From Zygnema cylindricum (taxonomy: Eukaryota > Streptophyta > Zygnematophyceae > Zygnematales > Zygnemataceae), in NCBI GenBank assembly GCA_037447655.1, contig JBBHKE010001022.1, forward strand, positions 1 through 64,000: a stretch of DNA of 64,000 bases, written 5' to 3'. Position 1 is the first letter of the stretch. Each line of letters begins with the position of its first letter. Below the pieces are notes generated by a model. The model was given only the letters and a program-made list of their open reading frames with translations. It was not told where the DNA came from and searched no databases. The position numbers and the translations under genes are program-made. Shown one piece after another: positions 10,050 through 63,891 of this stretch.

Positions 10050-10074
10050 TTTTTTTTTTTTTTTTGTTTTTTTT

Positions 10075-10112
<38 letters not shown>

Positions 10113-21557: not shown

Positions 21558-22022
21558 TGGAATTCGAAATTCCGTGTTACTATTAAGCCACTATGTTTTA
21601 GTTAGTCTTCTTTGCTTGTTAGTTAAGTCCTAGAACACTAAGTCTTAAATCTACTACTTTAATTAGTGTTTTTGCACTTTCTCGTAGTTTTTTGTACATA
21701 TTTTTTTAGAGTAGAAAGGTTCTCAATAACTCTTGGAATCTTTCTAATTAATGATTCTCTCCACCACTCCTAGATCTACCTAGATTAGTTCTACCTAACT
21801 AGTTCTACCTTCACCTTGTATATTGCAACTTCCACGTTTGAGTTTCTCTATAAAAACCTCAAACAGCTCATTGTTCTTTTAGTCACTACAAAGCTTAAAT
21901 TCACGACAGCCTTCTTTTGTCTCTTACTATTTTTTTGGTTGGTTTCAATTTCCTCTATTTTTTTCTCTTTTTTTCCTTCGCATCATTTTACCCTTCCTTG
22001 CTTTATGGCCGCTAACTTATTA
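21558..22022 (+). repeat. 5' LTR of the degraded copia element
   Basis: Starts TGGAATTCGAAATTCCGTG and ends near GCCGCTAACTTATTA. It aligns along its length with 26645-27094, sharing GTTAGTTAAGTCCTA, CACTAAGTCTTAA and CTTCACCTTGTATATTGC. The near-palindromic TGGAATTCGAAATTCC marks the outer edge of both copies. Confidence 0.85.
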
Positions 22023-23059
22023 GGTTATGAGCCTATGGCTCTTTCCATAGCAAACTCAATTCGTAAATTGAAAAGAGAAGGTTTTTATAACCGGAAATCG
22101 TAAATGTAGCATTTCTTTAGCTTTTAGAAACTGTTGGTTCATATTTTCAGAGATGTATGAGTACCAATCTTTCCCGCTGAGGATGAAGACGATTTAAGCC
22201 ACTCAATTCGCCATCATAGCGTAGAGAGAAAGATTCTGTCGCGTTATCACACCTCATACTGTCATTGGACTAGACCATTGCGGATTCAGTTCAAAGTGCC
22301 ACAACTACTAACGAAGCGTGATTGCTTTTACGCGTCGCACATGATACAAACATGTGGCCACATACGTAGCGCCTTGCGCAAATAATTTGTAGGGCTTAAA
22401 AATAAAAAAATGAAGATATGTTGTCATTTATCCAATAAGTACAGTTATTTGCTCATAGACTTAAAAGTTTTAACTACCCTATGACCCATAAAGATCTCAA
22501 TAGCCTCGGTTTAGCCGGATTGCCGCCCAACATTGAGACTTGTGTTAGTACAGCTGAAAAAAATCCTTCAAACGTCACTTTATTTAATCTCACTAACCAA
22601 CTTGTCTTTGGGGAAAACAAGCAAAAGTTTAAAAAATTTGCCACGTTATCTGACGGTTCGGAGCTAACACTTTCGTCGAAAAGATATCTATTCCAAGTGC
22701 GGAAGGATCTACAATTTTCTACGAATATTGCAAAATAAAAGATCATAAAATTGACACGTGTCTAACACTCGCCCGAAAGCGTGAACGTGCAACAGGCGGC
22801 GGTCACAACAAATCTAGTCCTCATAATCCAAGAGTGTCAATTTAATCGCCTATCGTGCCAACACTGTACAGGTAGTCCGGACACGCAAATGCAACATTCA
22901 TTACACCACTTTATGGTCCTTTTCCCACTATATACCAGATGATACCAAATCAATTCCATTTTTTGCCGCCCTTATCTTTGTCGCTCCTTGAAACTTCCAA
23001 ACCTGGAGCTCCCACCAGTAAAGAATCACCCGCTCTCACGCCTCCCAATTCCATACCCG

Positions 23060-26000
23060 CTTCTATTCCACAAATGGATCATGGGTATGGTTCAGCTCAT
23101 CAGGTATTGATTCTGAATGGTTGATTAATACGGGCCCTTCTCACCACATGTTGTGTCATAAATCAAACATCATTAATCTCATTAAGCTTTTTGTCCCTGT
23201 AACCATTGTGCTTGGCAATAATTTTGTTCTATCATCAAAAATTGTGGGACTGGTGGTTATTAATTCGAATATTTGTTTTTTACCATCTTATTGTACGTCT
23301 ATTAATTCCACCAACTCAAAAGAGATCTATTCTCTGCAAGGACATCCCTACAAACTAGAAGTTTTGGCGTTATTACTGAAAACATCGTTTGTTTTTTTTC
23401 ATCCAACCACATTCCCCCTGGAGGGGGCACGGAATGTGGTAATCTCTCCGTTTTTATTCATATAAAGATTTAGAGAATGCAAATTTATCAAACTCCTCTC
23501 CCTTTCCTCTATTTTTCGAAAACGACATTTGAGATTCGACCATTTGAATAGAGCTAGTCTAGCCACCCTTAGGAAGGGCCTTGTTTTAGGAATTGATCCC
23601 TTTAATACAACAAAGCCTGATTTTTGCCATGGAATTGATGGCAAAATGCCTCATATTTCTTTTCTTTCAATTTCATTTAATCTAAATCTTCTCTTGGTTT
23701 ATTTCATAATGGTGGGTGTGGCCTGATGAGAGTACCAAGCATGGGTGGATTTGTGTAATTTATTACATTCATTGAGGATTACTTTTGCTTCACCCACATA
23801 TCTTTCATGAAATAAGAATTTAAATCTTTTACTCAGTTTAAAACTTTTAAATCCCTTGTTGAAAATCAATTTCCCACTAGCATCAAAATCTTGCGAAGTG
23901 ATAAAGGTGGTGAAGACATGTCTAATGAATTTCCGGAATTCCTGTCAACATGTGGCATAATTCATCAAACTTTCTCTCCATATTGCCCTCAACAAAATGA
24001 GGATGCTGAAAGGCTTAATCGCACTTTCTTTGACACGGTTCGATCCATGTTGCACTTTGCTTCTTTACCTCCCTCTTTTTGGGGTGAAGCATAACTAACG
24101 GTTTCTTATGCAACAAATAGGGCCCCCATATTGGCTCTACCAAACAAAACACCGTTTGAAGCGTGGTATGGCACACCGTTTGAAGCGTGGTATGGCAAAA
24201 ACCGGATATACATCACTTTTGTATATTTGGAAATGCGGCGTACTACAAAATTCTTACCAATTCCTACGGAAAATGGAGTGTTAGAGCAATTAAAGGTGTT
24301 TTTGTCGAGTATGCACCAAATTCTAAAGAGTATCGCATGTGGTGTCCTACGACCCACCGTGTCATTATTGCGTTTGATGTCATCGTTAATGAAGCTTCGT
24401 TAATTTGCCAAATCTTACCTGATCTCCTTTTAACCCCTCTCGATCATAAATTTCCCATACCTAATTAGTTGCCCATTAATCCTCTAATTCTTTTTTTGTC
24501 TTGTAGTAACAATCCAACGACCACAAAATCAGACGTCGTTTCTACAAATTTTGAGAGACTGGCAAAAAATTTGTCTGCGTAATTTGCGTCCCTGACAACA
24601 AAACCTATTATAATGACATGCCAGCCAGCAGCCACGTTTCTACAAATTTTGAGAGATTAGCAAAATTTTCGTCTGCGTAATTTGCATCCTTGACAACAAA
24701 ACCTATTATAGTGATATGCCAGCGAAGAGCCACTCTATCAATCGTATTTTTAAATGGTCCTTTGCTGACAATCAATTTAACCTTGTTAATCCCATCGCAT
24801 CACCTTGTCCGAGCGAAAGCGTGGCGCTTCCTATGCAAGGCCAAATTCCGCCTATGTCAACCAACTTAATTTCTACTGACAACCGACGCTAATCTCTGTT
24901 CCTACTACGGTGATATCCTTTGGCGCTATCCTCCACGTCAAAAACCTTAACACTTTTTCCAACAAATGACATTACTCTTCAACAAAATGTATAGGGCAGT
25001 AGTTGACCTGTTTGTCTATTTTAGAAGGTAACACAAAATCTTGCTCACGCTAACCTTCTTGATGTCAGAGACCGCCGCCAAGATTAAAAGTTCTCCTCAA
25101 ATGCCCAAATGCAGACACGTGGCGTCTTGTCGCTAATGAAGAATACCAAGCGCTCATGTCAAATCAGACTTGAATACTTTGAGGGTTGTCACCCAACCAT
25201 TGCGGCATTGTTTCCAAATGGGTGTCAAAGTCAGAAAAGCTGCGGATGGGGCAATTCAACGGTACAAAACGCCCTTCATGGTGAAAGGTTATTCGTAGAC
25301 AAAAGGAGTTGATTACAATAAAACTTTTGCATTGTCGCCAAATTCGAATCTATTCTTACTGTTTTGTCACTAGCGGCTATACATGAGTGGCGGCTATACA
25401 TGACTGGGAATTTCATCAGTTCTACGTAAAAATTGGCATTTTACAAAGAAACCTTGACAAAGATATTTACATGGAACAAGATCTAAGATATTTTATAGCC
25501 GGCAACGAATCTTCGGTTTGTCAATTACACAAATCTTTTTCTTTAATAAGTGCCACACGTGTGGCATAAAACACTTGTTGTCGCTTTATTAGAAGATGGT
25601 TTTGGAGAAATTTGTGCAGATTTTGGTATTTACATTTAAAGTACGGGTGAGAACTTAGCAAGCGTTATTATTTACGTTAATGATTTAATTCTTGCTGGTT
25701 CTAGTCGTAAAGAAATTGACAAAGTCAAAACCATGTTAGCGTCTCGTTGGCATATGACGAATTTGGGCGACCTTGATTACTGTCTAGGTATTAGTATTAT
25801 AAGAAATAGTTCTAAGTATCTTTTACAAATGAGCCAAAAACATTATATCTTTGACTTTTAAGGTACTTTTGCACGTTCGATTGCCATCCAGTTTCCACAC
25901 CTCTCGATCCAAACACCACGCTTAGTAGAAAACCCTCCAGTGGAAATGCACAAGGCGATATAGGGTCCCTCTCTCAGGTCATTGTCTGCAAATTGATGTA

Positions 26001-26618
26001 TGCATGTTAAGGTCTCTACCAGATGTTTTCATTGTCGTGTTCATCTTCTCTCAATTTTCTCATTCGGCATCCCTCACCCATATCAATGCCGCCAAACGTG
26101 TCTTTCGATATCTCCAAGGCACCAAGCATCTTCGCCTAACCTTTTCTCTTCCTCTTTCCTCTTCTCCCTTTTCCTCTTCCTTTTCTCTGCCCGATTCTTC
26201 TTTTGTTGGCTTTTGTGGTGCGGATTGGGGAAATCAAACGAATGAACAGCAACCCAATTATGGTACCTGTTTATCCATTGGTGGTGGTTTTGTTTCATGG
26301 TCTTCCCAAAAACAACCTACCGTTCCTCCTTTTTCAACCGAAGTTGAATACATGCCGGATCTCTCCTTTCATCAAACCACTCCCACTCTTATCTTTTGTG
26401 TTTCTCAAGGCGCTTTGGCCTTAATAAAAAATACCATTTATCACACTCGTACGAAACATATCGATATTCAATATCACTTCACTCGTGAAAAAATCGTCGA
26501 TTGTACCATTTTGTTCTCCCATTGCACCAGTGCGAACCAACTTGCTGATTTCCTTATCAAACCTCACCTTTACCCATTGTTTGAAAAACATCTTTCTCCC
26601 TTTCGACTTTGTGGCTAA
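23060..26618 (+). pseudogene. Degenerate copia pol (protease, integrase, RT, RNase H)
   Basis: Recognisable pieces in order: a protease-like block with WLINTGPSHHM where copia has D-[ST]-G-A (23100-23300); integrase blocks LRSDKGGED, PYCPQQNEDAERLNRT and PPSFWGEA (about 23880-24090), then PFEAWYG, doubled by a 24-base in-frame tandem copy (24149-24196); the RT active-site region IIYVNDLILAG with LGDLDYCLGI (about 25660-25860); and RNase H with RVFRYLQGTKH, CGADWG, FVSWSSQKQP, TEVEYM and TRTKHIDIQYH (26004-26618). The RT motif YVDD has become YVND, losing a catalytic aspartate, and pieces lie in different frames. It cannot encode active enzymes. Confidence 0.85.
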
Positions 26619-26644
26619 TCCGTGCTTCAATCGAAAGGGGAAAT

Positions 26645-27094
26645 TGGAATTCGAAATTCCACGTTACTATTGAACCGCTATGTTTTAGTTAGTTTTCCTT
26701 GCTTGTTAGTTAAGTCCTATAACACTAAGTCTTAAGTCTACTACTTACATTCTTGTTTTTGTACTTTCTTGTACTTTTTTGTACATATTGTTTTAGCGTA
26801 CAAAGGTTCCCACTGACTCGTGGAATCTTTCTAATTAGTGATTCTCTCAACCATTGCTAGATCGACCTAGATTAGTTTACTATTTCTACCTTCACCTTGT
26901 ATATTGCGGCTACCACGTTTAATTTCTCTGTAAAACTCAAACCTCTCATTGGCTTTTTAATCATTAGAGAACTTGAGGTCACGACAGCCTTTTTGTCTCA
27001 TGCTGCCTTTTTTGCTTTTTCCATTTCCTCTATTTTGTCCTCTTGTCATTTGCATCACTTTTTCCTATCTTACTTTGTGGCCGCAAACTTACTA
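26645..27094 (+). repeat. 3' LTR of the degraded copia element
   Basis: Starts TGGAATTCGAAATTCCACG directly after the polypurine tract and ends near GCCGCAAACTTACTA. It is about 15 bases shorter than the 5' LTR, with many substitutions. Confidence 0.85.
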
Positions 27095-27776: not shown

Positions 27777-30340
27777 AAATCTTAGAAAAAATGGATTGAC
27801 AGGTAGAATTCCGCAATCAATTCAAAATTTGACAAGTCTCCAAGAATTGTAAGCTGGTTCTTATTTCCCCGAAAAATAAAAAATACATATTGTTGACTTA
27901 GTAATGATTTTTTGAGTCACATTGTGCTTGTGACGATATCTATCTGGAGCTTCTTATATATACATTTGGTATGCCGACATTATAAAACCTTACACCATGT
28001 ACAGTCGGTCGCATCATATGTCAATTTCTGCTTGAGGAAACATTACTTTTGTTGCTAGAATCAATGATAAACTATAGTCTATCATTTGGGGGAAACATCT
28101 GACCACTTCTTACGCTATTGACATAGGCAGGGAACCTGATTCTACTTGGTCTCAGCGCTAACCATACTTTACTTGATTTAATTGTTTTTTGAACAGGCGC
28201 TTTTCCAGAAACAACCTGACAGGTTCCATTCCCTCTGTTATGATGAGCTTACCAAGGCTCAAAGAGTTGTACGTTTTGCTTGTGCTCTTGTTCGGTTTTT
28301 GCTAAAGTAGCATCCATGGTTTTTTCCTCTCCATAAAATACTGATTGTCTTCAATAGGTCGTCTAACAGTATTGAGAAAATCAATTTTCGCATTTTTGTG
28401 AGAGATCGACCCATGTGCCAAACGGTGACGAGGGTTTTCAGCTTTTTGGTCGAGTTGACTTTGACAATGGATGTTTCAGGTATTTAGACGAGAACAAGTT
28501 CAGTGGGACCCTGCCTCCAAATATAGGCAGCCTAAACAAGTTGCGAGTTATGTAAGTTGATTGTCCTATTTCAACAAATGAAAGGGAAAAATGAGGCTGT
28601 AAATGGCATATGAGTATGAAACAATAATATAAATACCAATGACTGCATAGCTTTCTAAAGTTAAAACAATGAAATATACTGATGTCGGACTTTGCTGTAG
28701 TTTGCTGTCTGATTCTTACAATGCCATGCCTCCATGGTCCTCTGCTGTTTCAGAGATTTATCCCTTAACAAGTTGGTGGGCACCATACCTTCGAGTTTTG
28801 GCAGCCTAAAAAAACTCGAGGACATGTGAGTTCTTATCTTCATCTATTTATTTATTTACTTATTTTTTTGTCATAAGGACATTTTTAGCACTAAAGCGAT
28901 GTCAGTGTTTTTCAAGCTGCAAATATTTTTAAAATTTTAATCTCAAAAGTCATAAGCGATTGCTTGTAAACACTAGACCCGTCTGCAAAAAACCGAAATT
29001 TTTGTCATAATTTTGTTCTTTCAAATGACCACCAAAAATTCAAATGATGCTAAGCAAATTTGTAATCAGCGGGTTTAAAAACTCATTTGATCCCTCTTGC
29101 GGCTGTAAGTAGTCTCATTTTAATCTGTAAAATTGCAGTTTTCTGTCCTAAAAAATAGTCCAGGCGTCCTGTTTCTATTACTTATTAAAAAAACAACTGC
29201 GAAGATTTTTTGAAATAAATGAGCCAGAATTCCGATGAAAAAAAAAGGATAAAAAAAAACCAACTGTATGCTCCAAAAAACGGTTTTAGTCAAAATATGG
29301 TTCAGAGCTAACACATCGTAACGTCTATAATTTGTACAGAAGACATGATGTCCTCCAAATGGCTGACATTGGGACACCCGAACTTCGATAACTTGAAATC
29401 TAACCTAAACTGCAAACATTTACAAAATGAGCCTTAAGCAGACGGATACCGCAAAAATTTTGGTTTTGCTTGACTAAAACGGGCGCCATTTGTTCATTTT
29501 TGCTCCGGAGTTGGCAAATACTCTTGCGTTAGATGAGTCATCTCAAACGCTCAAATCCGTGAAGTATTGTCGCGGCTAGGTCTTTCCCAAGGGAGTTGTT
29601 CATGTAAATGCTGCCAACTCTCTGAAAGTTTGGTCGGACCAAATGTTCGGACCGAAAACGGCTCTAGTGTCTGAATATATGTTGGTAGATCTTCAGCCAT
29701 AAATCTTTCAAGTTATCTACCAAAATGTAAAAAATTACTATAAGATTCCTGTTTTCGTTCTCTTTAAGGTTTTGCCACCCGTGAGTAAGTGATAAGTGCC
29801 TAATACTTCAAAATTTAATCTAAAGTTTTGGAAATTTGTTCACGCACTTCCTAGAGCGTTTTGATGTTGTTCACTCCATCTAACTGTCACCGCACACATT
29901 CCTTTAGACTAACATAATTATCTCATACTTTATATGGTATACATGTGTCCCCAAGAGTACATTACTCCTTGGCTTGGTTTGCAGGAATTTAAGGAACAAT
30001 TCTTTCGTGGGGAATTTCATCCTTCGACTTCAAAGTTTTACCAACTTAAATGTTGATGTCAGAAACAACTATTTATCTGGAACAAATGTTTTTGTAAATG
30101 GTAATGAAACTTGTGTTTTTGTTGAGAACAACTGCTTCGACGTTGACGTTACAAATTGGAATAGCATTTGTGAAGGCTCAATACCAAATAGAAGACCTGC
30201 ATCAGAATGCAATAGATTTTGCAATGCATCGCAAACCAGGGGTGTATGCGGAGGACACGGCTATTGCACGGCGTTGGATGTTCCATGTACATGTGATGAG
30301 GGGTATGCGACAAGTGTGGATGATTTCACATGTACCTTTG
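27777..30340 (+). other. LRR block and first EGF-like module of the fusion gene
   Basis: Four consecutive exons of exactly 72 bases (24 codons), each entered and left in phase 2, encode one plant-type LRR apiece: NGLTGRIP, NNLTGSIP, NKFSGTLP and NKLVGTIP. The fifth exon (29985-30340) starts a last repeat (NNSFVGNF), then a Cys-rich linker and an EGF-like module with CGGHGYC and CTCDEGY. One exon per repeat in constant phase is typical of plant LRR receptor genes and allows growth by exon duplication. Repeats upstream of 27777 may exist. Confidence 0.88.
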
Positions 30341-33300
30341 GTAAGTACCAATGTGTAACATGCCCCGGACCAATTGGCTGAACACTGCTATTTGTAAAGG
30401 AGTTATCCGCATTAAAGGAAAATTGTGCCCATTATCTAATTTACTGGTGAATGTGGCCAATTGTTATCCACAACCATGAATGTGTTAGTAATGGTATTTT
30501 CTAGTTTTTGGCTAGAAAATATCACGATTGACGACAAGCATTTGACCTTCATTAAGCAAGGTTAACATAAAAACCTAAAATTGCACTATGTACGTTTTAT
30601 GAAGAACTTACCTCATCCTTTAAAACGACCATGAAACCGACCATGGGTCTGCAACGAATAAGCAACTTGATAAAAGAGGATGTTGAATCTCGTATGTTTT
30701 TTTATGTTAGGAAATTGCTTCACAATTTAACCACATTAAATTTTTCCTGCAATGGTTTACAGGCTAGTGGTCAGAGGGACTTCGTATAAAGTTAGAGGAA
30801 AGGCAGATTTCCATTTTATGTAATTCAGTTCGAATCAGGAAAAAGGAAAAATGTAATCTTCATTGCATAATGAGATACCTGGAGTATTAAGTGAATGAGA
30901 ACCATAATAGCCGACTGAGAAAGGTAGGAAGACAGGCTAAAAAAGCCAGGTTTGAACCGAGGTTGAAAAGTAACAAAGTGCTCATTTAAACAGAAAAAGA
31001 AAGAGCATTTTGAAAAAAAGGTAAAAGTGCAAAAGTAAAGTGTGAACGCCTGACGTGTTTGTGATTTGAAAGATAATCCAACACACTGTAATGATAATGT
31101 AGATTTCAAACAAAAGGGAGACAAAAGGGAACCTAATGAAACCGAAGCTTTGGAGCTTTGAAGAGGTGTCCGGAAATTAAAACTGTTAAATTGGACTTAA
31201 ATCTAAATGGAAATCTGTCGCGTAGGATAAGGCACTGAGTCTAGTGGGCCAAAGAAACTGTGTCTACATAGGTCAGAACAAGAAAAAAGTCTACACCAAT
31301 CTTAAAAACACTATCAATGACTCAAATGTAACAGTGACAGAAGACAGGTGAATGTGACGGAGATAGATGCAGGCGGCAGGTGACATGTGAAAAAATTGAC
31401 TCAGGTGGAAATCAGTGAATTGGTCTACAGTTGAGAAAAGTCCGTGTAGCAGTATTGTCTCTTACTATCCCTGTGATCCCACTATTTAACAAAGTCTTCT
31501 TTTAACACTTGCAGAGGGACGTGGCCTCGGACTTACAAGCTTCAGTGGGTTCAAATCTACAAAGTTGAACAGATATTTCCGCTACGCAAGCTTTGGATAC
31601 TTAATGCCGGATGACGACAATAAGGCATCTTGGCTCGTAGCGACAAACTGGAATTGGGTGAAACGACGAGCAGTTACAGCCATCAAGGACCAGCAAAATT
31701 GCAGTATGTTAAAATCCAATGAGTAAAAACATGGTATTTGCGGTCATTGCCACTGGGAATGGAAAAATTGAGATGTGATTTTTGCATGTCGTTATCGGCT
31801 ACACTTATAGGGATTACGATGAACTTTGTCATCAAAAAACTGATATATGTTTCACCTAAAGGATAAAAACTAGCAGACATGTGAATATCAGAAGTACAGA
31901 CGAACATGCTCCACAACCACTTACTGACATGTAAGACTTTGTGTAAGACTTGTGGTTAACCGTCTCAATCGACATGATTAGTTTTTATCACAGATTGTTG
32001 AAGGATTGATATGCATACGTAAGCATTTGGTTGCATGTAATAGATGTTCAATTTCAAATTCTACACCTGACATGTCTTTTTTGTTTCCTACATTGTTAAT
32101 GGCACTTCAGACATTTGTTGGCTTTTCGCTTCGATTTCAACAATTGAGAGTGCTTATTATACTTCAAATGCGGGAGTTTTGGACGTTCCCATCATATCAG
32201 AAAATCAGATATTTAACTGCTCCAGTTTGCGTCGTGACTGCTCTGTCGGTGGTTGGCCGATAGAGGCCCTCGCGTACGCCTCTAATAATCCTCTCATGTT
32301 AACCTCCGATTACCTTCCAGGCACTTGTCCCGGAGGGCAGGTATTCTTTTTGTCCCCGTTTGCTTGAGCAAGGAAAAGAACTCCAACAAATAGCAAGATT
32401 CTACCTTTTGAAAAATTAAGCATCCATGTTAGCCTGTGACAAGACGTAGCTTGACATGTTCAAAACCAAACTCGTAATCCATTTGATATTTCACATCTTT
32501 TTGATGTTTGGTTCCATTTTGGTAAAACAACTACAATGAATGGGTGTATGCACAGGTTCGTAGTGATTTGATGATACAATCTTTCGAGAGAGTCCAGCTG
32601 GATGGATGGCTGGGATTGCTTTTGGCTCTCCAACAACAAACAGCGATAGTCGGCATAGAAGCAAGTGGAAGCAACTTCCTCAACTATGATCCCAAAATGG
32701 TGACTTTTTTACAAACCAGTATATGTAGACTTTCTACCTCCGTAAATACCTTGTCTTTCACATATACAAGTGTGTTCAAACACACTCTAATGTTATTTTG
32801 GAAGCGTGATATAGAGGGTTCATATCAATATAAACCGGGGAGCTTGTGAATTAAAGTAATTCTTTTTTATCGATGGTGTACTGCAAAGCGATGCCAAATG
32901 TTAAGGGAAAAAATAAAATCACATTGTACCTTATAAATGATACACAAATGTCACGTTGATGTCTCAACGTATCTTTTATGATTTGCGTCGACGGTCACTT
33001 CGTGGAGCCAAAAACGCCCCGATGAAGCCAAGGTGTCGGGATACTCTGTTAAAAAATAGGAATTGTTAAACATAGGATCACGAAATTCAACTATTCATCA
33101 GCGGAAGCAGTCAGAATTTCAGACATCATCACAATTTCCGAATCACGGATTGCAACCGAAGTCGATCAAATAGAGGATATATTTAATCGAACTTTTTACA
33201 TCCTTTTTCCCTTCTTGACTCCTTGTTTTTATATATTTTTCGCTATATCACACTCTCTTCTAAAATACTTCTCCCAAAATACAAGAAGACAAAACTACAC

Positions 33301-36300
33301 TATCTCTGTCTCCTTACGTCACAATTTCCACTTAGACTCCACATATGCAAAATTTGACACTTAGACGCTGAATCGGACGTAAGCGCCTAACAAAGCATTT
33401 GTGCGCCAAACTTCTACGTGACCTGGACATAAAACATCCACGGTCCTACACGCACTAAAATAAATTACCAATCGTACAGGACCACCTATCGTACAGGACC
33501 ACCAAGCAGCTGTACGGAAACGGAATAAAGACCTGACGCGACAGCAAACCGAAACTGAACATAAAACCGTCACTTAAACAGTAACTGTTACTGGACGGTA
33601 ATTTACACATTGATATTCTAACAATCCCCCTCTTCAATGTCTGAATTAGTAAGGATTATATCAACCCTAATTTTTGGTCTCCCTCTCAAAAGTACATCTG
33701 CAACTGCCGCCTTCGTCAACATATCTGCGGCTTCCTCCAATGTAGAAATATATTGAAACTGAATTTCCTTTTGTGTGACAAGGTCACGCACGAAATGCCA
33801 TTGAATGCGGATATGCTTCGTACGTTTATGAAAAACAGGATTTTTCACTAATGCCATGGAACTCATGCAATCCGTAAAAATCTTTAAACATCCAATAGGA
33901 ACTTTCAATTCAAATAGCATTTCTTTTAACCAAACTGACGCTTTTGCGGCATGGCAAGCCGCCATATACTCAGCTTCTGTAGAACTTAACGCGACGGTTG
34001 GTTGAAGTCGCGAACTCCACGAATCTGCCGCTCCACTCAAAATAAAAGCGTATCCGGAGGTTGACTTCCCGTAGTCAAAATCGCCTCCCCAATCTGCATC
34101 ACAGTAGCCGAAACACTCCAAGCTTCCATTCGATTTATATAATAAGCCGATGTCGACGGTACCAGCCAGATATCGAAAAATACGTATCACGGCTTCCCAG
34201 TGAACCTTCTTCGGCGCATGACAGTATCGGCTAACAATTGAGACTGCTGCAGATATCGAAAAATACGAATCACGGCTTCCCAGTGAACCTTCTTCGGCGC
34301 ATGACAATATCGGCTAACAATTGAGACTGCCGCCGATATGTCAGGCCTTGTACCTACACTCAGGTACATCAAAATTCCGATCGCTTCCCGATACGGAACT
34401 TCAACATCTGTCTCCTCCTCAAATTTCCGAATTTGCATTTTCAGATCCAAGGGAGTAGAAATTGGTTTTGCATTCAGCATGCCAAACCGCGTCAAACCGC
34501 GTCAGAACTTCCTTGCAGTATTGAGCTTGGCTCAATTTAATGTCACCATTAGGGTGACGAATCACCTCAATCCCCAATATGTAACGAACTTCTTCCAAAT
34601 CCGTCACCTTGAAGTGAAGGCGCAAATAAGCCTTCAATTCATTGATTTTCTGCAGACTGTCAAAATTCATCAGAAAATCATCAACATAAACTGAGAAGAT
34701 AATTTGATCTTCTCCTTCCCCCATAATATAAACTCCCGAATCTGAGGTAGTGCGGACGAATCCAAATTCGGTAAGTACGGAATGTAGGCATAAGTACCAA
34801 GTACGAGGCGCCTGCTTCAAACCGTAAAGAGACTTTCGCAGCCGCCACACCTTCCCTTCCTTTGTTATAACTCCTTCCGGAACCTTCATGTATACTTCTT
34901 CTTCAAGTTCGCCATTTAAGAACGCCGTCTCCACATCCATTTGATGGATGTGCTTTTTACCGGCTGCCGCAATCGCCACAATCATTCGCAATGAGTCGAA
35001 TTTGACTACAGGCGCATATGTCTCCATGTAATCTACTCCTTCCCGTTGCTGAAATCCTTTGCAAACTAGTCTAGCCTTATATTTAATCACCTCTCCAGAC
35101 GCACCAGTTTTGGTCTTGAAAATCCACTTCGCATCGATGGCCTTCTTCCCTTCCGGTAGATCAACTTCCTCAAATGTTCGATTTTCGACAATGGATTTAT
35201 ACTCTTTTTCCCAAGCCGGTTGCCATTTCGACTCCCAATCACCTGAATTTCTAGCTTCAGAATACGATCGGGGGTCACCGGCGGAAGTCTCACAAAGTGA
35301 TTGCTAGAGGAGGAAATCCTCCTCCTTAGTTGCCGAAATGAAGTAATGTGAGTTTTCAACATTTCCTCCTTTTCGGTCAAAAGATAATCTAGCTGGTTTT
35401 CTCCCTTAAGATTCCCGTGTACTCCTCCTTAAATTAACATCAGATTCCTTATCTTTCTCCAATTCGGTTCGACTTGAAGAGGAAGATTTTGAATTTGTTG
35501 AATTCCGAGATTCAGATGACATTTGAGAATTTGAATGTCGCGATTCAATGTCAATGTTTTCAATTTCTTCATCAATGTCAAATTTTCGTTTCCCCCTCTT
35601 AACATTGACAGTCGGATCAGCCTCAATGTCATCATCCGACTCCTCAATGTCCGGGAAATTTGAAATTTCGGCTTCTTCATGAAAATCCAAATTTCTCCGC
35701 AATTTTGCCGATCCTTCAATTGCAGATTTCAAGTCCTCGTGAAAATTGACATTTCGTGATTCAATAATTGTGTGCCGTGAGGGATCGTAAATTCGGTAGA
35801 GATTCCCTCGCGAGCTATATCCGACAAAAATTCCAGACCAACATCTCGATGCAAATTTTCTGCGTCGATTTTGTGATTCTACATAGACGGTGACGCGACA
35901 TCCCCAAATCCTTAAATGATGAAGAGTTGGTTTCCGCCCGTACCACAACTCATGAGGTGTTTTATCGCCCGAGATAGAAGTAAGCCGCCGATTACAAATA
36001 TAACTAGCGGTTAAAAGTGCATCTCCCCAAAGTGAGATAGGGCGACCGGATGCATGCACCATAGCTCAGACCATTTCTTCGAGTGTCCGATTCTTGCGCT
36101 CAGCCACCCCGTTTGATTCCGGGGAGTTTGATGCCGTATATTGATGTCGTATTCCCCATTCTCTACAATATCCATCAAAAGCTATAAATTCACCGCCATT
36201 ATCCGTTCGGATGGATTTCAATTTTCACTCACATTCTTGTTCCGCCATGACGTGCCATTCTTTAAACCTCTCGAATGCTTCAGATATATGCTTTAGAAGA

Positions 36301-39300
36301 ATCACCCATGAAAATCGTGAGTAATCATCGACAATGACCATAATGTAACGATTTCCACCGATACTTTTCGGTTTCATGTGACCACACAAATCGATGTGGA
36401 TTAATTCGAGAGGATGGGAAGACCGAAATTTAATATCTTTCGGTGGATGAGGTTTCCGAATTTGCTTCCCTTGATTACACCCCTCACATCCATTAACTTT
36501 TTCGCCCGAGGCTAAATCTAAGCCTCTCACACAACCGGTTTTTATCATCCTTCTTAGATTCCCCTCGGATGTGTGGCACATCCGGTGATGCCAAAGACTT
36601 AAATCCCCTTTAAATTTTGAAATTTGATTTGCAATCGGATCCGGATGTGAATCAACCTTAGGTCGCCGCCAAACCAATCGACTATGCATATTTTCCGTAA
36701 CTTCCCCTTCACCAATAACAACTCCTTTTTCATTAACAATGCGAATTGTCGAATCTCCAAGGGCATATACGCTACCGCCCGTGCGTTGGATCTGCGGGAC
36801 ACTCAATAAATTGACCGAACCTTCGGGAATGTAAAGAACATTGACCAAACGGGTCGGTGTTACGCGCTCTCTTCCTTCGAAATTCAATGTGGGAAGGTCT
36901 AAACGGACAATTCCCACATTGGTGACAGACATTACTTGTCCGTTTGCAACTGTAATTTTCTTAGGAATTGTCAATTGTCGCAAGTCATCAAAGAGTGTCA
37001 CATCGGTGCAAACGTGATGTGATGCTCTCGTATCAATCACCCACTCCTTCTCAATATTTACATTTTCTGTTGATGAGTCAACCGAAAGGTTGAGACATGT
37101 AAAAATCTGAGCACTTTCTTCCTCTCCCTCTTCATACACACCGTCTCCAAAAAAGTGTCCTTGGCCTCCAAAACGGCCACCACCACGGCCACCACCACGG
37201 CCTCCAAAGCGTCCTCCTCCTCGGATGCCTATGCGGCCTCCTCCGTGGCCGCCATTAAAGCTACCACGGCTGCCATTAAATCTTCCTCTACCACCTCCAC
37301 CTTCTCCTTCCGATTTTGCATAACATTGAGAACTTAGATGCCCCCACTTGCCGCAAGAATAACATTGTCGATCGGGACATGATACCGCCAAATGTCCAAA
37401 TTTGTTGCAATGAAAACAAGCGACAGAATTCAGATCGGGGGCGGATGGAAAGGGCTTTGGATTTCCATTCTTCACTTGTCCCCTTCCTCTACCTCTCGGG
37501 CCTCCTCCCCTTCCTCTACCTCTCGGGCCTCCTCCCCTTCCTCCTCTTCCGCCACCACGTAGGTAAGATAAGTCGGCGGAATTAGAATTGGTTAAATTTA
37601 AAGAACCGGAGGGAGGAGTACTCCGAGAAGAACTCCCTCGATTTTCTTCGTTATCTTTCAAGTATGATAAAAGAAATGAATAAGTCAACCTCTTTTTCAC
37701 TCCCAAAATTTCTTTGAGATGGACAAGTCTTTCTGGCAAAGCATTAAGAAAGCCGGTCACTTTGTCCGCCTCAATAACAAACCGACCGGTAGCTGCAAGT
37801 CGTTCCACAATCAGATTGTATCGTTTTGAAGCGTCACCAATCGACTCACTCGAAGTCATCTTAAAATTCAGAAATTCCTTGTATGCATGTTGACCGCGAT
37901 TTTGGATTCCTTTTTCAAATTCGTTTTCTATGGCCCGCCAACATTCATGTGCAGAATCATGTGTCAAGAAATAATCATGAACTGCGGGCGTACAAGTTTG
38001 CATTAATCCGGTATAGGCGGCAACATTCTTACGTCTACATCTATTTCTAGCCTTGCGACCAGAAATCGGCAAAGGATCCTCTCCTGTAACGATTTTCCAA
38101 AGACGTCGAAGCTCAAACTGTCCTTGAATATATCTTTTCCAGATATAGTAGTTCGTTCCATTGAAGAGAACGACTTTGCCGGGCATCTGAATCAGTTTAT
38201 CATCCTCCTCATCCTCGTCTTCCTCCTAGTCAGATTCATCTTCAGCTTCGAATTTTCTTTTCCGGATTCTTTCTCTCCTGTCATCTTCAGTTTCTCCTTC
38301 CACGTATCTACTGCCTCCTCTATTGACAACTTGCAGCCTGCCCCCTTGAGGGGCAGCTGGGAGCGTCTATTGAGCGTCTATTAACAACTTGCAGCCTGCC
38401 CCCTTGAGGGGCAGCTGAGAGCACACTCTGAAGAACTCCAGTTAGAAGTGTCTGAAGCCTCTCCTCCATGAGAATCATGCCTGCTCCTCCTGCTGCTCTT
38501 CCTCCTGCTGCTCTTCCTCCTGCTGCTCTTCCTCCTGCTGCTCTTCCTCCTGCTGCTCTTCCTCCTGCTGCTCTTCCTCCTGCTTCTTCCTGCTGCTCTT
38601 CCTCCTGCTTCTTCCTGCTGTACATCCTGCTGTACAGAAGTAAACTAAAGCCACCTCGACTCGGTTCAGGAGTTTCAGACTGCAAAGGTGCGGACTGTGG
38701 AGCAGCCTTCTTCTTCCTTCCTCCCATTGCAGCAACACTCGCCACAGTGACTTGTATCAAAAACTGACTACTTCTGGGAGCTTATACCCGCTCCAATACC
38801 AATTGTTAAAAAAATAGGAATTGTTAAACATAGGATCACGAAATTCAACTATTCATCAGCGGAAGCAGTCAGAATTTCAGACATCATCACAATTTCATCA
38901 TCACAATTTCCGAGTCAGAATTTCAGACATCATCACAATTTCCGAATCACAGATTGCAACGGAAGTCGATCAAATAGAGGATATATTTAATCGAACTTTT
39001 TACATCCTTTTTCCCTTCTTGACTCCTTGTTTTTATATATTTTTCGCTATATCACACTCTCTTCTAAAATACTTCTCCCAAAATACAAGAAGACAAAACT
39101 ACACTATTTTTGTCTCCTTACGTCACAATTTCCACTTAGACTCCACTTATGCAAAATTTGACACTTAGGGTGTGTCCCTATGTGCATAAGTAAGGGTTTT
39201 TTTCTGTCGTTTTCCTGTAAAACTTAGCGTCGTACTGCCTAAGTTCCAACTGTTGCGTCACCCTCGAACTTAGGATGTGCGTCACCCTCGAACTTAGGAT

Positions 39301-42300
39301 GTACGAAAAATTATCGTCTTGTGTTTTTCGACCCACTTCGACGACAAAAAACGTCATCTTCAACCTTATCTTTAAAACACATGCGCGATGTGTTTTAAAA
39401 CTAGGGATTTTACATAAACAAATAGGAACACATATTCGCACGTGCCGCATTTTTCGAAGTATTTCACACGATTTTCAAAGACAAAGGAAAGTACGGAAGT
39501 CGTTATGTTTTGTCCGTTTGCATTTCATACGACATAGAAAATTACACAATTTGTTTTGTTTTGTCCGTTTTCGTCCAGTACGGATTTTTTTTTTGCAGGG
39601 GTCTCGAAATTCTGATGCCATTTCACGTTGACCGGAAAGAAGACGCAAAGGCAAAGCACAACTTCTTCATCCGTGAAACGGTACAGGGTGGAAGGCGGTA
39701 CGTCTACAATGTCACGGTAAGACATGCGACGTCACACAAGCAGTTCCAAAAAATAACGTCCGACAACACAGATTGTAGACGTTGACAACCGTCACAGGTA
39801 TTGTCGACGAATATAATCGTCACAAACGTAACTTACGATACGTTCTTACACATAGGGACACTTGAAAAGCGGGTCCGCCGGATCCTTGCTAAAATACAAA
39901 GTTCGCTAAGTTACAAGTACATGGGGACATACCATTATACGCTGAATCAGACGTAAGCGCCTAACAAAGCATTTGTGCGCCAAACTTCTACGTGACCTGG
40001 ACATAAAACATCCAGGGTCCTACACGCACTAAAATATATTACCAATCGTACAAAAATAAATTACCAATCGTACAGGACCACATTTCGTACAGGACCACCA
40101 AGCAGTACAGAAACGGAATAAAGACCTGACGCGACAGCAAACCGAAACTGAACATAAAACCGTCACTTAAACAGTAACTAAAGACCTGACGCGACAGCAA
40201 ACCGAAACTGAACATAAAACCGTCACTTAAACAGTAACTGTAACTGGACGGTAATTTACACATTGATATTCTAACAAACTCTAACATGGATAATAGTACC
40301 AAAGGGCCAAAATCTAATATTTTGTCGTTTGGGCCCTTTTTGGTTCTCTGCAGGGGGTGTTTGCTGATGACGACTGCTTTTCAAATGGAGTGGATCACGC
40401 GGTCGTTGTGGTTGGCTACGATTTGACTTACACTCCACCCTATTGGCTCATTCGGAATTCTTGGGGGCCGAATTGGGGCGACAAAGGATACATGCGTTTA
40501 AAAATTACTGGAGGGCCCGGAATTTGCGGAATAAATACCTTGCCGGCACTGTTACCGATAATCAATGTACCCTGTAAGGAAAATCATCTGCGTGTCATTG
40601 ACATAGTGTTTCCAGAAAAGACTTGTTGATCATATTTTGATTTTTGCTTTTATTTTTTGCCCGTGTAAACTTCTTCTTTCCCAGATTATAGTTCCATGTA
40701 AAACATAACGGTAAGTGAAAAACGTACACTTTTGTTTATGAGTACATAGCATGCCAGAAACAGTGGATTTCTTAAAACTGAACTCAAACTTTCTTTCCAA
40801 TGATCCCGTTAAGGTTTAGAGGTCAGACTGAATAATTCACATCCTTTCATACAAAATACCAGCTTAGGAGCAGGTCGTGGATGTGCTTCCGGGGGGTATT
40901 GACTTAGGTAAGAGAAGTCGTTCAGTACCTTATAATGTTTGCGCCCATGCAAAATAAATACAAAATAAATAAGGACCCGCCAGTACCAACATGAGGGTTG
41001 TTGGCGGAGTGGTTAACGAACTCATAGCTCTAGTCAGAGATCCCAAGTGCGAGCCCTGGCCGGCTCAATTTTTTAAAGTGTGAGACATGCCAAACCCTAA
41101 ATTGTGCGGAATTTCAACACTACAAAGAGGGAAATCGCAAATCCGTGCACTCATGGCGAAGAATGGCCTTCATTTTAGGATTTTCTCCGGTCCAAAATGA
41201 CCATATTCATAAAATTCATTACCGTAGAAGATTGTTTGCCATTTGCAAATATTTGTATTGAAACATTTGGGAAATCTAAAAGCACATTTGATTTCTATAG
41301 TCGTCAGTATCATAGGGTCAGGATTTTTTTTTTTTGGTATTAGTCATTAAAAGAAAAAATGTACATAATCACTTGTGCCGTAAAAATGTTGCCTTTAGTA
41401 TAAAGAAAGGGGCCTTAAAAATGAAGGGGTTGGGAGCTCCTGTACGAAGAAAGTTCAGAAAAGATTTTAAGAATCATCCTTGTTCTTTTAATGATATTAT
41501 CTCTAATTATGTAGAAAGAAATGTCTTGTTAGCAAGAGAATTAAATAGCTTGTTTGTCAAGTAAAAGAAATTAACATGAAATTGTGTGGCAAAAATTTCT
41601 GCTGGGTGATATCCTCAAAATTTGGATGTTCATTTCATCTTCACCTCGGTCTACGAAAAGAACAAACATCTCATTTTTCCTTCCATTTATTTCATTCTTG
41701 CAGCGGATCCCTGCCACTTCAACAACTTTGCCAGGAATAAGCTCAATGCTGACTATGGACCAGGTCTCATGAATCCATGCGGCAACGGAGTTTGCACTCC
41801 GTCAGGCACAACCAATCTATGCACATGCGGCGATAACTTTGTTGCCGTAAACAACACAGACGGCAGCCAGACTTGTGCACCAGGTCTGACATGCAGAATT
41901 CCACTGATCCATCCAAGCCATTACGTAACCATTAGATTGAACCAAAAGTTATCCAGGAAAAGAACGTGAATTTGAACAGTCACGTGCTAAAAGTTTTAAC
42001 CTCAAGAGTGTTGACTGCACTAAACCAAGAAACCCATTGCAGAACTAGAGCAGATATAACATGAAGCTGAAACATTTAACATATATGTCAAATGTTATAT
42101 AATCTCTGTAAGGCTACTGTGTTCAGAAAGGCAATAGGTGTGAAACTCACACCTAATACTTTTATACTATGTTTTTCTTGAGTGCTTAGTTTTGGAAATC
42201 TCTGGCTATGTGCGACAACTTTAAGAAAAGACATCAAATAACTGGTGGTAATATAAACGGTTTCCACACGTACAGGCTGTGGACTCTCGTGTTATTGAAT

Positions 42301-45215
42301 CTTTTACTGAAAATATTTTGCAAATCATGTGAAATAAATGGGACCAGTAATGTTTATTTCCAAGACTTGCTTTCAAATCATGTTTTAGAGCGACATGCTG
42401 TAAAAGTTACCATTGTGCTTTTCCAATCGATTGTCAGCTCTTCTTACCTGCTTGCAACAGCATACTATTGTTGAATTGTCGTTGGAGCTAAATAAACTAA
42501 GGGAAAGCACTGGGCTTACGTCAAATTCTTGGTTCCACCTGACTCTGGTGGACAGAAATTCCAGAGTGTTTAAGCATGCGTTCTGTGTTGACATTCTTAG
42601 TCTTCACATGGGCCAGTGATGATGAGCATGGGTCATTCTTTCTCTGACATTGAAGTGTAGTGAAAGGTTGCTGTCATTGTACTTCAAAAATTGGTTTGCA
42701 TATAAACAAATATCGCTGGTGTGCTTGACATAATAATCCATATCTAGTTCAGTACTGCATATGCCGAAGTCGTCAAACTCTTAATTTAATCTGGGGCACC
42801 TACCTGTGTATGTGGCCTTTGCAGCAAATCCGTGTACTTTTGCCTCCAAAAATCCATGTGGCGTGGGTGTTTGCCGGAACTCTGTGATTTACCCAGGAAC
42901 TTACCTTTGTATTTGCCCTATGGGCTATTCCCCTAGCGATACTGACATCCTGCTTACTTGTGTTCCTGGTGAGTAATAAAGCTTCAAGCATATAACTCGC
43001 AATCATTTTTACATAAAATAAAAAAAGAAGTGCATTGATTTTCTGAACCGTTTCAAATAGTTGTAATTTTCTCCTTGTGTTCCTTGCAATGCCCTAATCT
43101 TCGCCCCCCCTGCTGCAGCTGCCATCCTCGGGGACCGCCAGAATTTCTATACCGTGCCAGAGAGTGGAAATGTGACTTGTAATGCTATTCGTAATGCGTA
43201 CGGGATTTCCAAAGACGACTTTACAAATCAAAATCCGGTATCAAAACTTTCCATCGTTTCACAATATGCGACCTTTGCTGTTCCCTTGACAAACGTCCTC
43301 GTGGATCCAATAATCCAGGATTCAATTTCATGTTAAAATACTTGATTAACACTGGATAGCCTGTAAGACCATAGGGGAAATTAGCACCTATACAGGAGCA
43401 TATTTTTCCTTATTCTTTCACTTTGACTAAAGACCAACCTATGCATCCGAATCATGTTCAGTCAAATTTTCAGCAAAAGCAATGGATCCAATCATTTTCA
43501 ATATTGAAACACCAAAGCGAAAAAAATCCTTGGTGGCCAAAACTGTGAAAGAAAATAAAAGACGAATGACTAATGTATTTTACAGTAAATCAAAAAATAG
43601 ACATGCTGCTATGAAAATTATTGACGTACGACTCCAAACCCGTGGGCATGGAGAAAACATGAGCCAATTTGTCAAAAGGCAAAAGTGACTCCTCTGCAAG
43701 ACGAGAAAAGATTATATAAAAAACTGAAAAATAATTATAGTTTCAAAATGCGCTTTAATTGTTTAAGGTTAAAATGACATGTTTGCGTACATAATTTATA
43801 TAAATCAATGCTTTAAAGTTTCTCCTGAAATGATTTTGACAGAAATTTCAACTGGTACATCATTCATTCAAAAAAAAGAATAATGATACGTAGACTAAAT
43901 TAAGGTGCGACATAGAGTCAAAATATGCTCCCCTACACTGGTACTTGAAGATGAAATGGTTAATGCTGAACTTGCAGGTGATACAGCTTATTGCAATATA
44001 TATGTCGAAACAAACAAGAAACTAACACAATAATGTTCCTTGTTTGGCAGAATCTTAATTGTAGCATCCCATTGCAGTCGGGGACGATTGTCAACGTGAC
44101 TGCTTATCGCAACTGCTCTCTTCCCTATACTGTGACGGAGGTTAGTATAACGACTATAGGAAGTACAAAAGCCACATAAAACTGTGACCATTGCCCATTT
44201 CCATTTTTATGGTTGATAAGTGATGTGTGTCAGCTTATATTCAAGTCGTAGACAACAAAAATTTCCTAGACATTCTCGTTTCTTCATCACTTTCCAGTTT
44301 TTTAGCAAAACAAGTAACTTTGGACTGCCCTGTCATTTTGCAGGATGACAGTTGTGATTCAATTCAACAAATGTTTGACCTAACAGCTCTTTCTGGACCC
44401 GATTCACCGAATCCAGACCTTGACTGCTTCGACCTTCAGCCTTTCCAGCAGGTCTGCAAAGATATTATGCTGAATATTAGACGGATGATACCTAGCTGAA
44501 TGTATTTTACCGTTGGAACCAATGATAGTCATTATCAGAGGTTATTTTCCTCATTCACTTGACTGCTCTCATTTTCAGGTGTGCATCAAGCGAGGGGACC
44601 TTCCGTACACCTTGCCATGTGTAAAATCCTACGAAGTCAAACCAGAAGACACATGCAGTTCAATTATTACAAATCTGATGAATCCCGGTGATAACAAAAC
44701 TGATGATCAGAAGCTCGAGGATGTCATGAAGTTCTACACCCTCAATGTGGGAATATTTTGTTCACGCATTGACAGCTCTATCACAACTGTGGCAGGTTAC
44801 AATGAGGAGGTACGTTCACAAAACATATTATTACTCGTTTTATTGAAAAAAAGAGTTTCTTCCTGCAGTGACATGCATTTCTTGGATTCTGAACAACAAT
44901 GCATTTCGTGCACCGTTATTGGAAAACGTGTTATTTTATTTTTTGTTTGCTTGTGATTAGGTTTGCCTTGAAGAAGGAGATTTGGGAACGGTGGTGAGGG
45001 GCTGCACTGGCGAAAAACGGAAGGCTATCAGATTGAAATCAACAGACAACTGCGCGAGTCTGAGCAAATGCTTCGTAAAACCTGATAAATCATCAAAGAA
45101 AGACACATTTAAAAGCTTAAACGGTAGGGCATGTACAAGGACTTTATTGGAATCTATCCGGCGAAAATCTTCTGATCCCATCATATGCGTTACCAGAGTC
45201 GGTCCATGTAACTAA
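27777..45215 (+). CDS. LRR - EGF - papain-like peptidase (C1A) - EGF - LysM fusion protein, 16 exons
   Basis: Exons: 27777-27848, 28197-28268, 28480-28551, 28754-28825, 29985-30340, 31515-31703, 32111-32340, 32556-32699, 40354-40573, 41704-41883, 42825-42968, 43119-43237, 44051-44140, 44344-44451, 44579-44809, 44961-45215. All borders are GT-AG and all phases agree; one open frame of about 850 residues ends at TAA 45213-45215. Order: five leucine-rich repeats, an EGF-like module, a complete C1A peptidase domain, two Cys-rich EGF-like modules, and LysM-type repeats. These modules are extracellular in plants, so a secreted or cell-surface protein is likely; no transmembrane segment was seen in the recognised part. 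The N-terminus is missing. The large intron 32700-40353 holds an antisense copia element. A related gene end lies at 63270-63891. I know no described family with this full order; glycan-directed proteolysis or defence is only inference. Confidence 0.85.
33047..33623 (-). repeat. 3' LTR of the intronic copia element
   Basis: 577 bases. Read on the minus strand it begins TGTTAGAATATCAATGTG and ends CCTATTTTTTAACA. This copy lacks the nested TIR element of the other LTR and preserves its empty site GACACTTAGACGCTGAATC at about 33356-33374. Confidence 0.92.
33624..33635 (-). promoter_or_regulatory. Polypurine tract of the intronic copia element
   Basis: GAAGAGGGGGAT on the minus strand, directly before the TG start of the 3' LTR; plus-strand DNA synthesis is primed at such tracts. 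Confidence 0.8.
34169..34334 (-). repeat. 83-bp tandem duplication in the copia RNase H region
   Basis: Two adjacent 83-base copies start at 34169 and 34252, sharing GATATCGAAAAATACG, CACGGCTTCCCAG and TTCTTCGGCGCATGACA. The copies differ at a few positions. Confidence 0.9.
38486..38612. repeat. 15-bp tandem array (CCTCCTGCTGCTCTT)n
   Basis: Six to seven perfect units followed by degenerate CCTGCTTCTT units, in the copia leader. Confidence 0.92.
38790..38801 (-). promoter_or_regulatory. Primer-binding site of the intronic copia element
   Basis: TGGTATTGGAGC on the minus strand, two bases inside the 5' LTR edge. It matches the initiator-Met-tRNA site TGGTATCAGAGC at 10 of 12 positions. Confidence 0.75.
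39168..39934. mobile_element. PIF/Harbinger-like non-autonomous element nested in the copia LTR
   Basis: Begins GGGTGTGTCCCTATG and ends CATGGGGACATACCA, an imperfect terminal inverted repeat of about 15 bases. TTA is present on both sides (39165-39167, 39935-39937). The sister LTR shows the unoccupied site with a single TTA, so the borders are known almost to the base. Three-base TTA duplications are typical of PIF/Harbinger. No transposase is encoded; short frames within it are unrelated to known proteins. Confidence 0.9.
40120..40239. repeat. 60-bp tandem duplication in the copia LTR
   Basis: Two identical adjacent copies of a 60-base segment (AAAGACCTGACGCGACAGCA...), present once in the sister LTR. 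Confidence 0.93.
41002..41074 (+). ncRNA. tRNA-like / SINE-head sequence with Pol III boxes
   Basis: TGGCGGAGTGG (41002-41012) matches the tRNA A-box, and GTGCGAGCCC (41047-41056) resembles a B-box at suitable spacing. TTTTTT (41069-41074) could terminate Pol III. The stem pairing is too imperfect for a confident functional tRNA; a tRNA pseudogene or tRNA-derived SINE head is more likely. It lies in the intron between exons 40573 and 41704. Confidence 0.45.
41704..45215 (+). other. Two EGF-like modules and LysM-type repeats of the fusion gene
   Basis: Exons 41704-41883 and 42825-42968 are phase-1-bounded and begin (S)DPC and (A)NPC, each with a CGNGVC or CGVGVC core and a CxC pair, as in EGF modules. 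The rest encodes LysM-type repeats. The first (43119-43237 plus 44051-44140) runs FYTVPESG ... AIRNAYGIS ... QNP|NLNCSIPLQSGTIVNV. The second has PYTVTE|DDSCDSI and NPDLDC. The third has SYEVKPEDTCSSI. The last exon has a weaker repeat (STDNCASL ... FKSLNGRAC). VCIKRGDL and VCLEEGDL linkers separate the later ones. LysM domains bind N-acetylglucosamine polymers such as chitin or peptidoglycan. Confidence 0.82.
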
Positions 45216-62860: not shown

Positions 62861-63300
62861 GATTCTAAATAAAAAACCAAAATGCGTAACATTCATACAT
62901 TTGATGAGCTATATAATTGCATCCAGCTGATTCTTTTCGGTCACCATAGTTATCGCACAAACTGATCCAATTTATACTGATTACTTGAACAAATAAATGA
63001 AAATATTAAATATATTCTGCTAGATCGTGGTCACGGTCCCTATTAAGTAGCATCAGGTACTTGACACCGAATTTGACCGACCATCCCTATGTTCACAAAG
63101 GGAAAACATAAGGGAATTAAACTGGCACCAAAAGAAGTACACAGTTTTTTAGCTGGTGAGCACAATTTTCGTCAATTTCGTAAATTCCTGCAGTTCAATT
63201 GTTTCCAAATCTTTCAAAAAATTTAATATTCAGAGCAACGGTAATAACGCTCCTGAATTTTCCGCATGCTCATGTACATTTGCTAGTACCGGTAACGCAT
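62690..63300. repeat. Segmental duplication, copy 2 (partner 55796-57250)
   Basis: Direct-orientation partner of the 55.8-57.25 kb copy, without the 850-base extra stretch. Here the homology continues into an intact terminal exon on the minus strand, so this looks like the more complete version. Confidence 0.88.
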
Positions 63301-63891
63301 ATGGTGGGATTAGATTTTTTTAGGATAGTTGCCAACGTCTTGCTTTGACATGCCACCTTGTTTAAGGATTTAAATGTTTGAGGCTTTATGAAACATTTTT
63401 TCAGACTCGCGCAGGTGTCCGATTTTTTCAATTTGATACCCTTTTGATTTGGGCCACTGCAGAATGCCACGTTTTTTCCCAAATCTCCTTGTTCGAGGCA
63501 AACCTGATAACAAACAAACAAAGAAGTATTTTATTTTTCTCCATCAACGATACATCAAGTGCGGTGTTTGCGCTACAGTTCTTGGAAATGGAGAAGGAAG
63601 AAGGCCAGATTCATGTCACTGCAAGAAGAACCACTGGTTTGAAATTTGTGCTTACGTACCTTCATCATTGTAACCTGCCTCAGTGGTGATAGAACTATCG
63701 ATGCGTGAACAAAATATTCCTACATTGAGGGTGTAGAACTCTATAACATCCTCGAGCGTTTCATCATCATTTTTGTTATCACCAGGATTCATCAGGTTTG
63801 CAATAATTGAACTGCATGTGTCTTCTGGTTTGACCTCGTAGGATTTTACACATGGCATGGGGTACGGAAGATCCCCTAGCTTGATGCACAC
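63270..63891 (-). CDS. 3' end of a second LRR-peptidase-LysM gene (partial)
   Basis: Two exons on the minus strand match the last two of the gene at 27.8-45.2 kb. 63891-63660 encodes VCIKLGDLPYPMPC, SYEVKPEDTCSSI and NVGIFCSRIDSSIT, almost identical to its counterpart. 63503-63270 encodes VCLEQGDLGKNV, KKSDTCASLKKCF and a C-terminal TGTSKCT with TGA at 63270-63272; it is about 7 residues shorter and clearly more diverged. At the junction this copy has one base more than the plus-strand gene (GATGAAG|GTACGT against GAGGAG|GTACGT), so canonical splicing would shift the frame, suggesting a pseudogene or a different splice choice. Upstream exons are beyond the window. Both exons belong to the LysM-type region. 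Confidence 0.78.

Follow-up and report, generated by a model that had tools for sequence, protein, structure and literature searches.

Does one gene of the alga Zygnema cylindricum encode a protein in which leucine-rich repeats (LRRs), EGF-like modules, a papain-type peptidase and LysM repeats are joined, and if so, what might such a protein do? The question arose from a preliminary description, made from the sequence alone, of a stretch of 64,000 nucleotides (hereafter the window), in which such a fusion was proposed. We answer it here from the structure of the gene, from its relatives in the same genome and in other algae, and from the state of the window copy itself.

Sixteen exons and a single open frame

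On the forward strand 16 exons between 27777 and 45215 join in one frame to give a protein of 850 amino acids. An AG precedes all 16 exons, a GT follows exons 1-15, the phases chain unbroken and a single stop codon closes exon 16 at 45215, so that the in-frame joining originally proposed is consistent with every exon border. The first codon of the exon at 27777 is split, implying a true start further upstream, which was not found. The encoded protein comprises, in order, four LRRs with a cap, an EGF-like module, a C1A papain-type domain, two further EGF-like modules and two to three LysM-like repeats (Table 1).

Two relatives are central to establishing whether these parts belong together: P0006, an open reading frame (ORF), labelled complete, from an assembled transcriptome in EukProt, and P0009, the gene model ME000166S01720, whose label jgi/Mesen1 we take to denote Mesotaenium endlicherianum. 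In BLASTP, residues 1-823 of the window protein align in one stretch to residues 344-1162 of P0006 (39% identity, E 1e-169), and residues 1-820 align collinearly to residues 316-1120 of P0009 (35% identity). That two or three adjacent genes, encoding an LRR-EGF protein, a peptidase and a LysM protein, were misread as one is a very remote prospect. The introns at the joins measure 1.1-1.2 kb, one of 7.65 kb lies inside the C1 domain, and at 99-102 kb of the same contig a locus carries LRR and EGF exons near which no C1 exon was detected, all of which could speak for such a joining. However, the exon joins are phase-matched, paralogous loci show the identical domain order, and P0006 and P0009 each hold the LRR, C1 and LysM parts on one ORF with one collinear alignment, which largely refutes it. 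As one transcript-derived ORF matches residues 1-823 in a single alignment, the LRR, EGF, C1 and LysM parts are, on this comparison of sequences, assigned to one gene, and the claim of one polypeptide stands.

When the entire protein was compared with Pfam, Peptidase_C1 (1.3e-35), LRR_8 (3.5e-13) and LysM (2.5e-8) all passed the Pfam cut-offs; EGF lay below its cut-off in the window protein (0.0048) and above it in P0006 and P0009. Comparison with NCBIfam gave LRR matches only, all below cut-off. The LRR profile scored 19-34 bits on each of exons 1-4; across 10 control pieces (~103 kb) it returned no match above 8 bits, with 6 and 8 matches in two family loci run alongside. Scored one by one, the LysM-like repeats gave 0.00082 and 0.0022, both just under the cut-off, then 0.059, with no match for a fourth, from which we regard two as fair, the third as weak and the fourth as without support; the LysM match of P0009 reaches 2.2e-19. 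Alignments to P0001 and P0006 extend into exons 15-16. The Pfam matches and the alignments of relatives thereby agree with the order of LRR, EGF, papain-type peptidase and LysM first described.

Alignment to papain-type rows likewise recovers the Gln, Cys, His and Asn that had been reported, and these residues together with the C1 profile place the window protein in peptidase family C1A. In plant members of this family the catalytic domain is usually preceded by an I29 inhibitor propeptide. Actinidin, ervatamin and ficin, plant papain-like peptidases matched in the PDB, have the same catalytic residues and belong to the same family; in contrast, I29 (PF08246) was unmatched in the window protein at E <=1 and in P0006 and P0009 at E <=0.1. 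The classic plant papain-like enzymes are not known to have LRR, EGF or LysM parts. Among structures in the PDB, the C1 domain of P0006 is nearest to plant papains, and its LRR domain to the ectodomains of plant receptor kinases, GSO1 and FLS2 among them.

Elsewhere in the window the minus strand carries an intron-rich, DDB1/CPSF-A/RSE1-like gene at 4786-13504 (matches to PF03178, PF23726 and PF10433) and, at 46780-47700, an open frame of 306 aa for which Pfam gave no match.

Table 1. Features of the LRR-EGF-C1-EGF-EGF-LysM gene and its surroundings, in window positions
Feature	Position	Strand	Basis or remark
Exons 1-4, LRR, 72 nt each	27777-27848, 28197-28268, 28480-28551, 28754-28825	+	phase-matched, one plant-type LRR apiece
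Exon 5, final LRR/cap and EGF-like module 1, unbroken exon	29985..30340	+	same content in 7 loci
Exon 6, pre-catalytic linker (I29 unmatched), start of Peptidase_C1, oxyanion-hole Gln	31515..31703	+	Pfam, catalytic-residue alignment
Exon 7, Peptidase_C1, catalytic Cys (NICW)	32111..32340	+	catalytic-residue alignment
Exon 8, middle of Peptidase_C1	32556..32699	+	exon join; paralogue comparison
Exon 9, Peptidase_C1, catalytic His (GVDHAV) and Asn (RNSWG)	40354..40573	+	catalytic-residue alignment
Exon 10, EGF-like module 2	41704..41883	+	present in 12/12 family loci examined
Exon 11, EGF-like module 3	42825..42968	+	exon join, Pfam
Exons 12-14, LysM-like repeats 1 and 2	43119-43237, 44051-44140, 44344-44451	+	Pfam, single-repeat scoring
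Exons 15-16, weak LysM-like repeat 3, Cys-rich end without Pfam support, stop	44579-44809, 44961-45215	+	single-repeat scoring
Older LTR element	21556..27094	+	end repeats 82% alike; just 5' of first LRR exon
Copia-type LTR element in intron 8, outside the coding gene	33047..40277	-	RVT_2 1.6e-76, copia-type gag 3.2e-15
Neighbour copy, last exons in window	63270..64000, on to ~72 kb of same contig (C761)	-	inverted second copy

A family in zygnematophyte algae

A profile search listed 26 matches, of which, by a precomputed Pfam list, seven combine LRR and C1 (P0004, P0006, P0008, P0009, P0012, P0014 and P0016). Four of the seven have LysM as well (P0004, P0006, P0009, P0012), the triple combination for which the preliminary description suggested searching. 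P0006 and P0009 belong to the same family as the window protein and have its domain order. The architecture is accordingly not unique to the window gene, being found in a Mesotaenium gene model, in one assembled transcriptome and, with an extra lectin, in Closterium. Three of the four Closterium LRR + C1 proteins have this lectin (P0004, P0008, P0012); in P0004 (CLOM_g12454), a member of the same family with Ser for the catalytic Cys, the legume-lectin domain sits between LRR-EGF and C1, corresponding to the exon 5/6 junction of the window gene. A legume-lectin domain adjoining the C1 part was also seen in P0005, P0008 and P0012. A shorter relative, P0001, is an ORF of 494 aa on a contig of 1664 bases; it aligns at 50% identity and contains the C-terminal C1 part together with EGFs and LysM.

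In a further search 13 of the 23 listed matches combined C1 and LysM without LRR, 11 of them named Closterium. Across three protein searches, each of which scored ~8000 candidates, every organism-labelled match with more than 30% query coverage was Closterium or Mesen1, a distribution that describes these candidates alone. A scan of viral contigs found no relative. In a tree of 47 C1 domains (six of 53 sequences, P0001, P0013, P0014, P0016, P0020 and P0029, having been dropped for coverage) an LRR-type clade of 17 is recovered with support 100/99, beside a clade of 14 from proteins without listed LRR (100/99), the two being joined at 97/88. LRRs are present in the model or locus of eight of the 17 (window, C1414, C1318, P0004, P0006, P0008, P0009, P0012); for the remaining nine none was listed or found. 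The window gene shares the domain order, C1 clade and exon layout of the zygnematophyte LRR-EGF-C1-EGF-EGF-LysM family that we propose. Going by its nearest labelled relatives, what had been called a plant gene is an algal one of zygnematophyte type: its LRRs are of the plant type, but it is not a land-plant gene.

By hydropathy, P0006, P0009, P0016 and P0004 each start with a hydrophobic leader. Beyond it, no second hydrophobic segment reached the applied threshold in P0006 or P0009, and P0016 and P0004 have one extra each, in the C1 domain and the LRR domain respectively; at the same threshold no leader was seen in P0019 and P0029. No transmembrane segment was detected by hydropathy in the window protein and C1414, both without their start, or, leader apart, in P0006 and P0009. 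On the signal-peptide check proposed earlier, hydropathy points to a leader in these four relatives; the true N-terminus of the window copy was not found. We regard the architecture, the single-gene nature and the secretion of this family as highly probable.

Paralogues, selection and the state of the window copy

A search of the 352.8-Mb assembly with PF00112 gave at least 150 scored matches (the best 150 of 303 candidates). Thirteen places with the His/Asn exon, picked partly by score rank and partly by hand and hence a non-random sample, were examined; 11 belong to the family and two are ordinary papain/cathepsin-B-like genes (C1970, C547). With the inverted neighbour at 63.2-72 kb, these 11 make up 12 family loci. 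The EGF of exon 10 lies downstream in all 12, weakly in C1516. Upstream LRR exons occur in seven of the ten loci checked (window, C1364, C1414, C1052, C1318, C1505, C1380), and all seven have exon 5 with the LRR end and first EGF unbroken; none turned up at C1991 (4.5 kb searched), at C1516 (9 kb) or in the truncated neighbour. LysM exons are present in the window gene, the neighbour, C1414, C1052 and C1991 and were not found at C1364 and C1516 (~9 kb searched each), C1318 being left out of this scoring as the piece covered was too short. At C1414 the exons join cleanly into an LRR-EGF-C1-EGF-EGF-LysM ORF that ends in a stop; a start was not found there, nor was more than one LRR exon. An open reading across introns arising by chance was considered and rejected, as the exon layout is conserved among paralogues.

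The number of LRRs differs among paralogues, and at C1318 (950-3307) the LRR exons lie in tandem units ~800 bases long and ~81% alike, suggesting that repeat number changes via tandem duplication. Several copies are damaged. The neighbour, 81% identical to the window gene over 551 codons, is cut off inside exon 5 and has a frame change in exon 9; in C1052 exons 6-8 are damaged; in C1364 exon 6 has a frame change and exons 11-16 were not found within ~9 kb. On the same contig (C761), the minus strand at ~99.0-102.3 kb carries LRR exons and an LRR-cap/EGF exon in the style of the family, with no C1 exon in the following 14 kb; this locus is perhaps a fragment, or a gene with another output domain.

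Comparison of 15 copy pairs by the Nei-Gojobori method, ten of them saturated at silent sites, gave dN/dS of 0.09-0.34 wherever silent sites were unsaturated. Between the window gene and its neighbour the ratio is 0.28 (551 codons; 0.18 in C1 exons 6-8, 0.34 in the rest) and between the window gene and C1364 it is 0.15 (392 codons; 0.19 in exons 2-5 with LRR and EGF, 0.09 in C1 exons 7 and 9). The neighbour and C1364 give 0.14, C1991 and C1318 0.22, and C1414 and C1991 an unreliable 0.10 with dS 3.1. These ratios indicate that purifying selection acts between the copies compared.

There is nonetheless a substantial chance, somewhat short of even, that the window copy is a pseudogene, truncated at its 5' end and decaying, within a real family. 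No LRR, LRRNT or leader exon of this copy was found in 18-27.7 kb, a stricter LRR scan of the entire 64-kb window returned the four known LRR exons alone, and residue 1 aligns to residue 344 of P0006, which together suggest that the copy may be 5'-broken. The LTR element immediately ahead of the LRR block, copia-like by translated match to the element in intron 8 and with weakly matching integrase pieces, may have severed the start of the gene or moved it away. The second LTR element lies in intron 8, whose length in C1414 and in the neighbour is ~0.4 kb, and the broken neighbours fit decay as well. Against it stand the 16 open exons, the intact splice sites and the low dN/dS relative to two copies. 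In C1364 an LRRNT-like stretch lies ~1.2 kb before the first clear LRR exon, an interpretive reading of a weak match (E 8.7).

Possible functions and known kin

We propose that the locus belongs to a zygnematophyte family with many copies, whose secreted multi-domain proteins would at full length consist of a leader peptide, a plant-type LRR ectodomain, an EGF module, a complete C1A peptidase, two EGF modules and LysM repeats. Through the LysM repeats the protein would be anchored to glycans of the GlcNAc type, whether in chitin, in peptidoglycan or in the wall of the alga itself; partner proteins would be selected by the changeable LRR, and whatever comes within reach would be cleaved by the tethered peptidase. 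For such a targeted protease we see about an even chance on the sequence evidence. The likeliest use would be extracellular defence or cell-surface policing, with a defence role suggested tentatively. Putative cutting at chitin or peptidoglycan surfaces, the role suggested in the preliminary description, is plausible. Activity, glycan binding, LRR ligand, role and the secretion of the family as a whole are inferred.

The main rival to a use in defence is wall remodelling, in which the protease would trim glycoproteins of the wall, or mucilage, as cells grow, divide or conjugate, and the LRR and LysM parts would bind the alga's own wall and not microbes. We consider such own-matrix housekeeping rather unlikely, though it finds support in the leader peptides, the purifying selection between copies and the presence of the family in Mesotaenium, Closterium and the window's alga; EGF and LysM modules, moreover, suit matrix proteins. 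The very many copies, the varied LRR number and the broken copies look, as indirect evidence, more like a recognition family than one wall enzyme. It is also conceivable, but improbable, that the proteins are sensing scaffolds in which the C1 fold serves for binding and not as an enzyme, as perhaps in some Closterium members. Over 23 aligned rows, a count that includes P0003, intact yet outside the family, the catalytic tetrad is intact in 14, unreadable in five and altered from Cys to Ser in four (P0002, P0004, P0005, P0007). All four of the latter are lectin-bearing Closterium members, and they imply that proteolysis is not essential for every member. The window protein, C1414, C1318, C1991, P0006 and P0009, however, retain all four papain residues, which counts against the scaffold reading.

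Volvox has chitin-binding cysteine proteases, for which our literature search listed no paper. Proteins with Peptidase_C1 and LysM are reported in Chlamydomonas in the available part of PMC2728734; as in the window protein, a papain-type peptidase is joined to LysM, but LRR or EGF are unnamed in that part, while here a plant-type LRR and EGF stand in front. Closterium relatives without LRR likewise join C1 and LysM, and LRR-bearing Closterium members add a legume-type lectin. As far as these sources extend, the closest described kin is the C1 + LysM layout, to which the LRR-EGF front is added as the new part. The family resembles plant LRR receptor kinases and receptor-like proteins (GSO1, FLS2) in LRR type, with one repeat per 72-nt exon and LRRNT_2 matched in the relative P0009; it differs in lacking a hydropathy transmembrane segment and a kinase match, its output domain being a peptidase. 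No paper describing the LRR-EGF-C1-EGF-EGF-LysM order was found among the titles and abstract openings of the literature searched; the passages of PMC11289646 and PMC10834447 do not mention the C1/LRR/LysM combination, and a keyword check of the main text of PMC10407611, on Closterium, gave no match. The earlier remark that no described family with this order was known is therefore supported within these sources; C1 + LysM alone is already on record. In PMC11096116, 209 combinations of Pfam domains are counted as unique to Zygnematophyceae, and the LRR-C1-LysM combination may sit unnamed among them.

A speculative reading of these sequences, which we hold to be rather doubtful as yet, is that they would be receptor-like proteases, in which a plant-receptor LRR, with a lectin added in Closterium, is wired to a protease that acts outside the cell, fixed to surfaces of the chitin or peptidoglycan type. 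They would form a many-copy recognition family with cutting, not kinase signalling, as its output, from which catalytically dead sensor members split off.

In land plants LRR ectodomains are mostly found on kinases, and papain-like proteases are secreted separately. The joining of LRR, papain-like protease and LysM in the algal sister group would be another way to couple recognition to extracellular action. Domain shuffling is evident in the Closterium protein P0004, where the lectin lies between LRR-EGF and C1, just where exons 5 and 6 meet in the window gene. The family offers a concrete set of genes for asking how zygnematophytes meet chytrids and bacteria.
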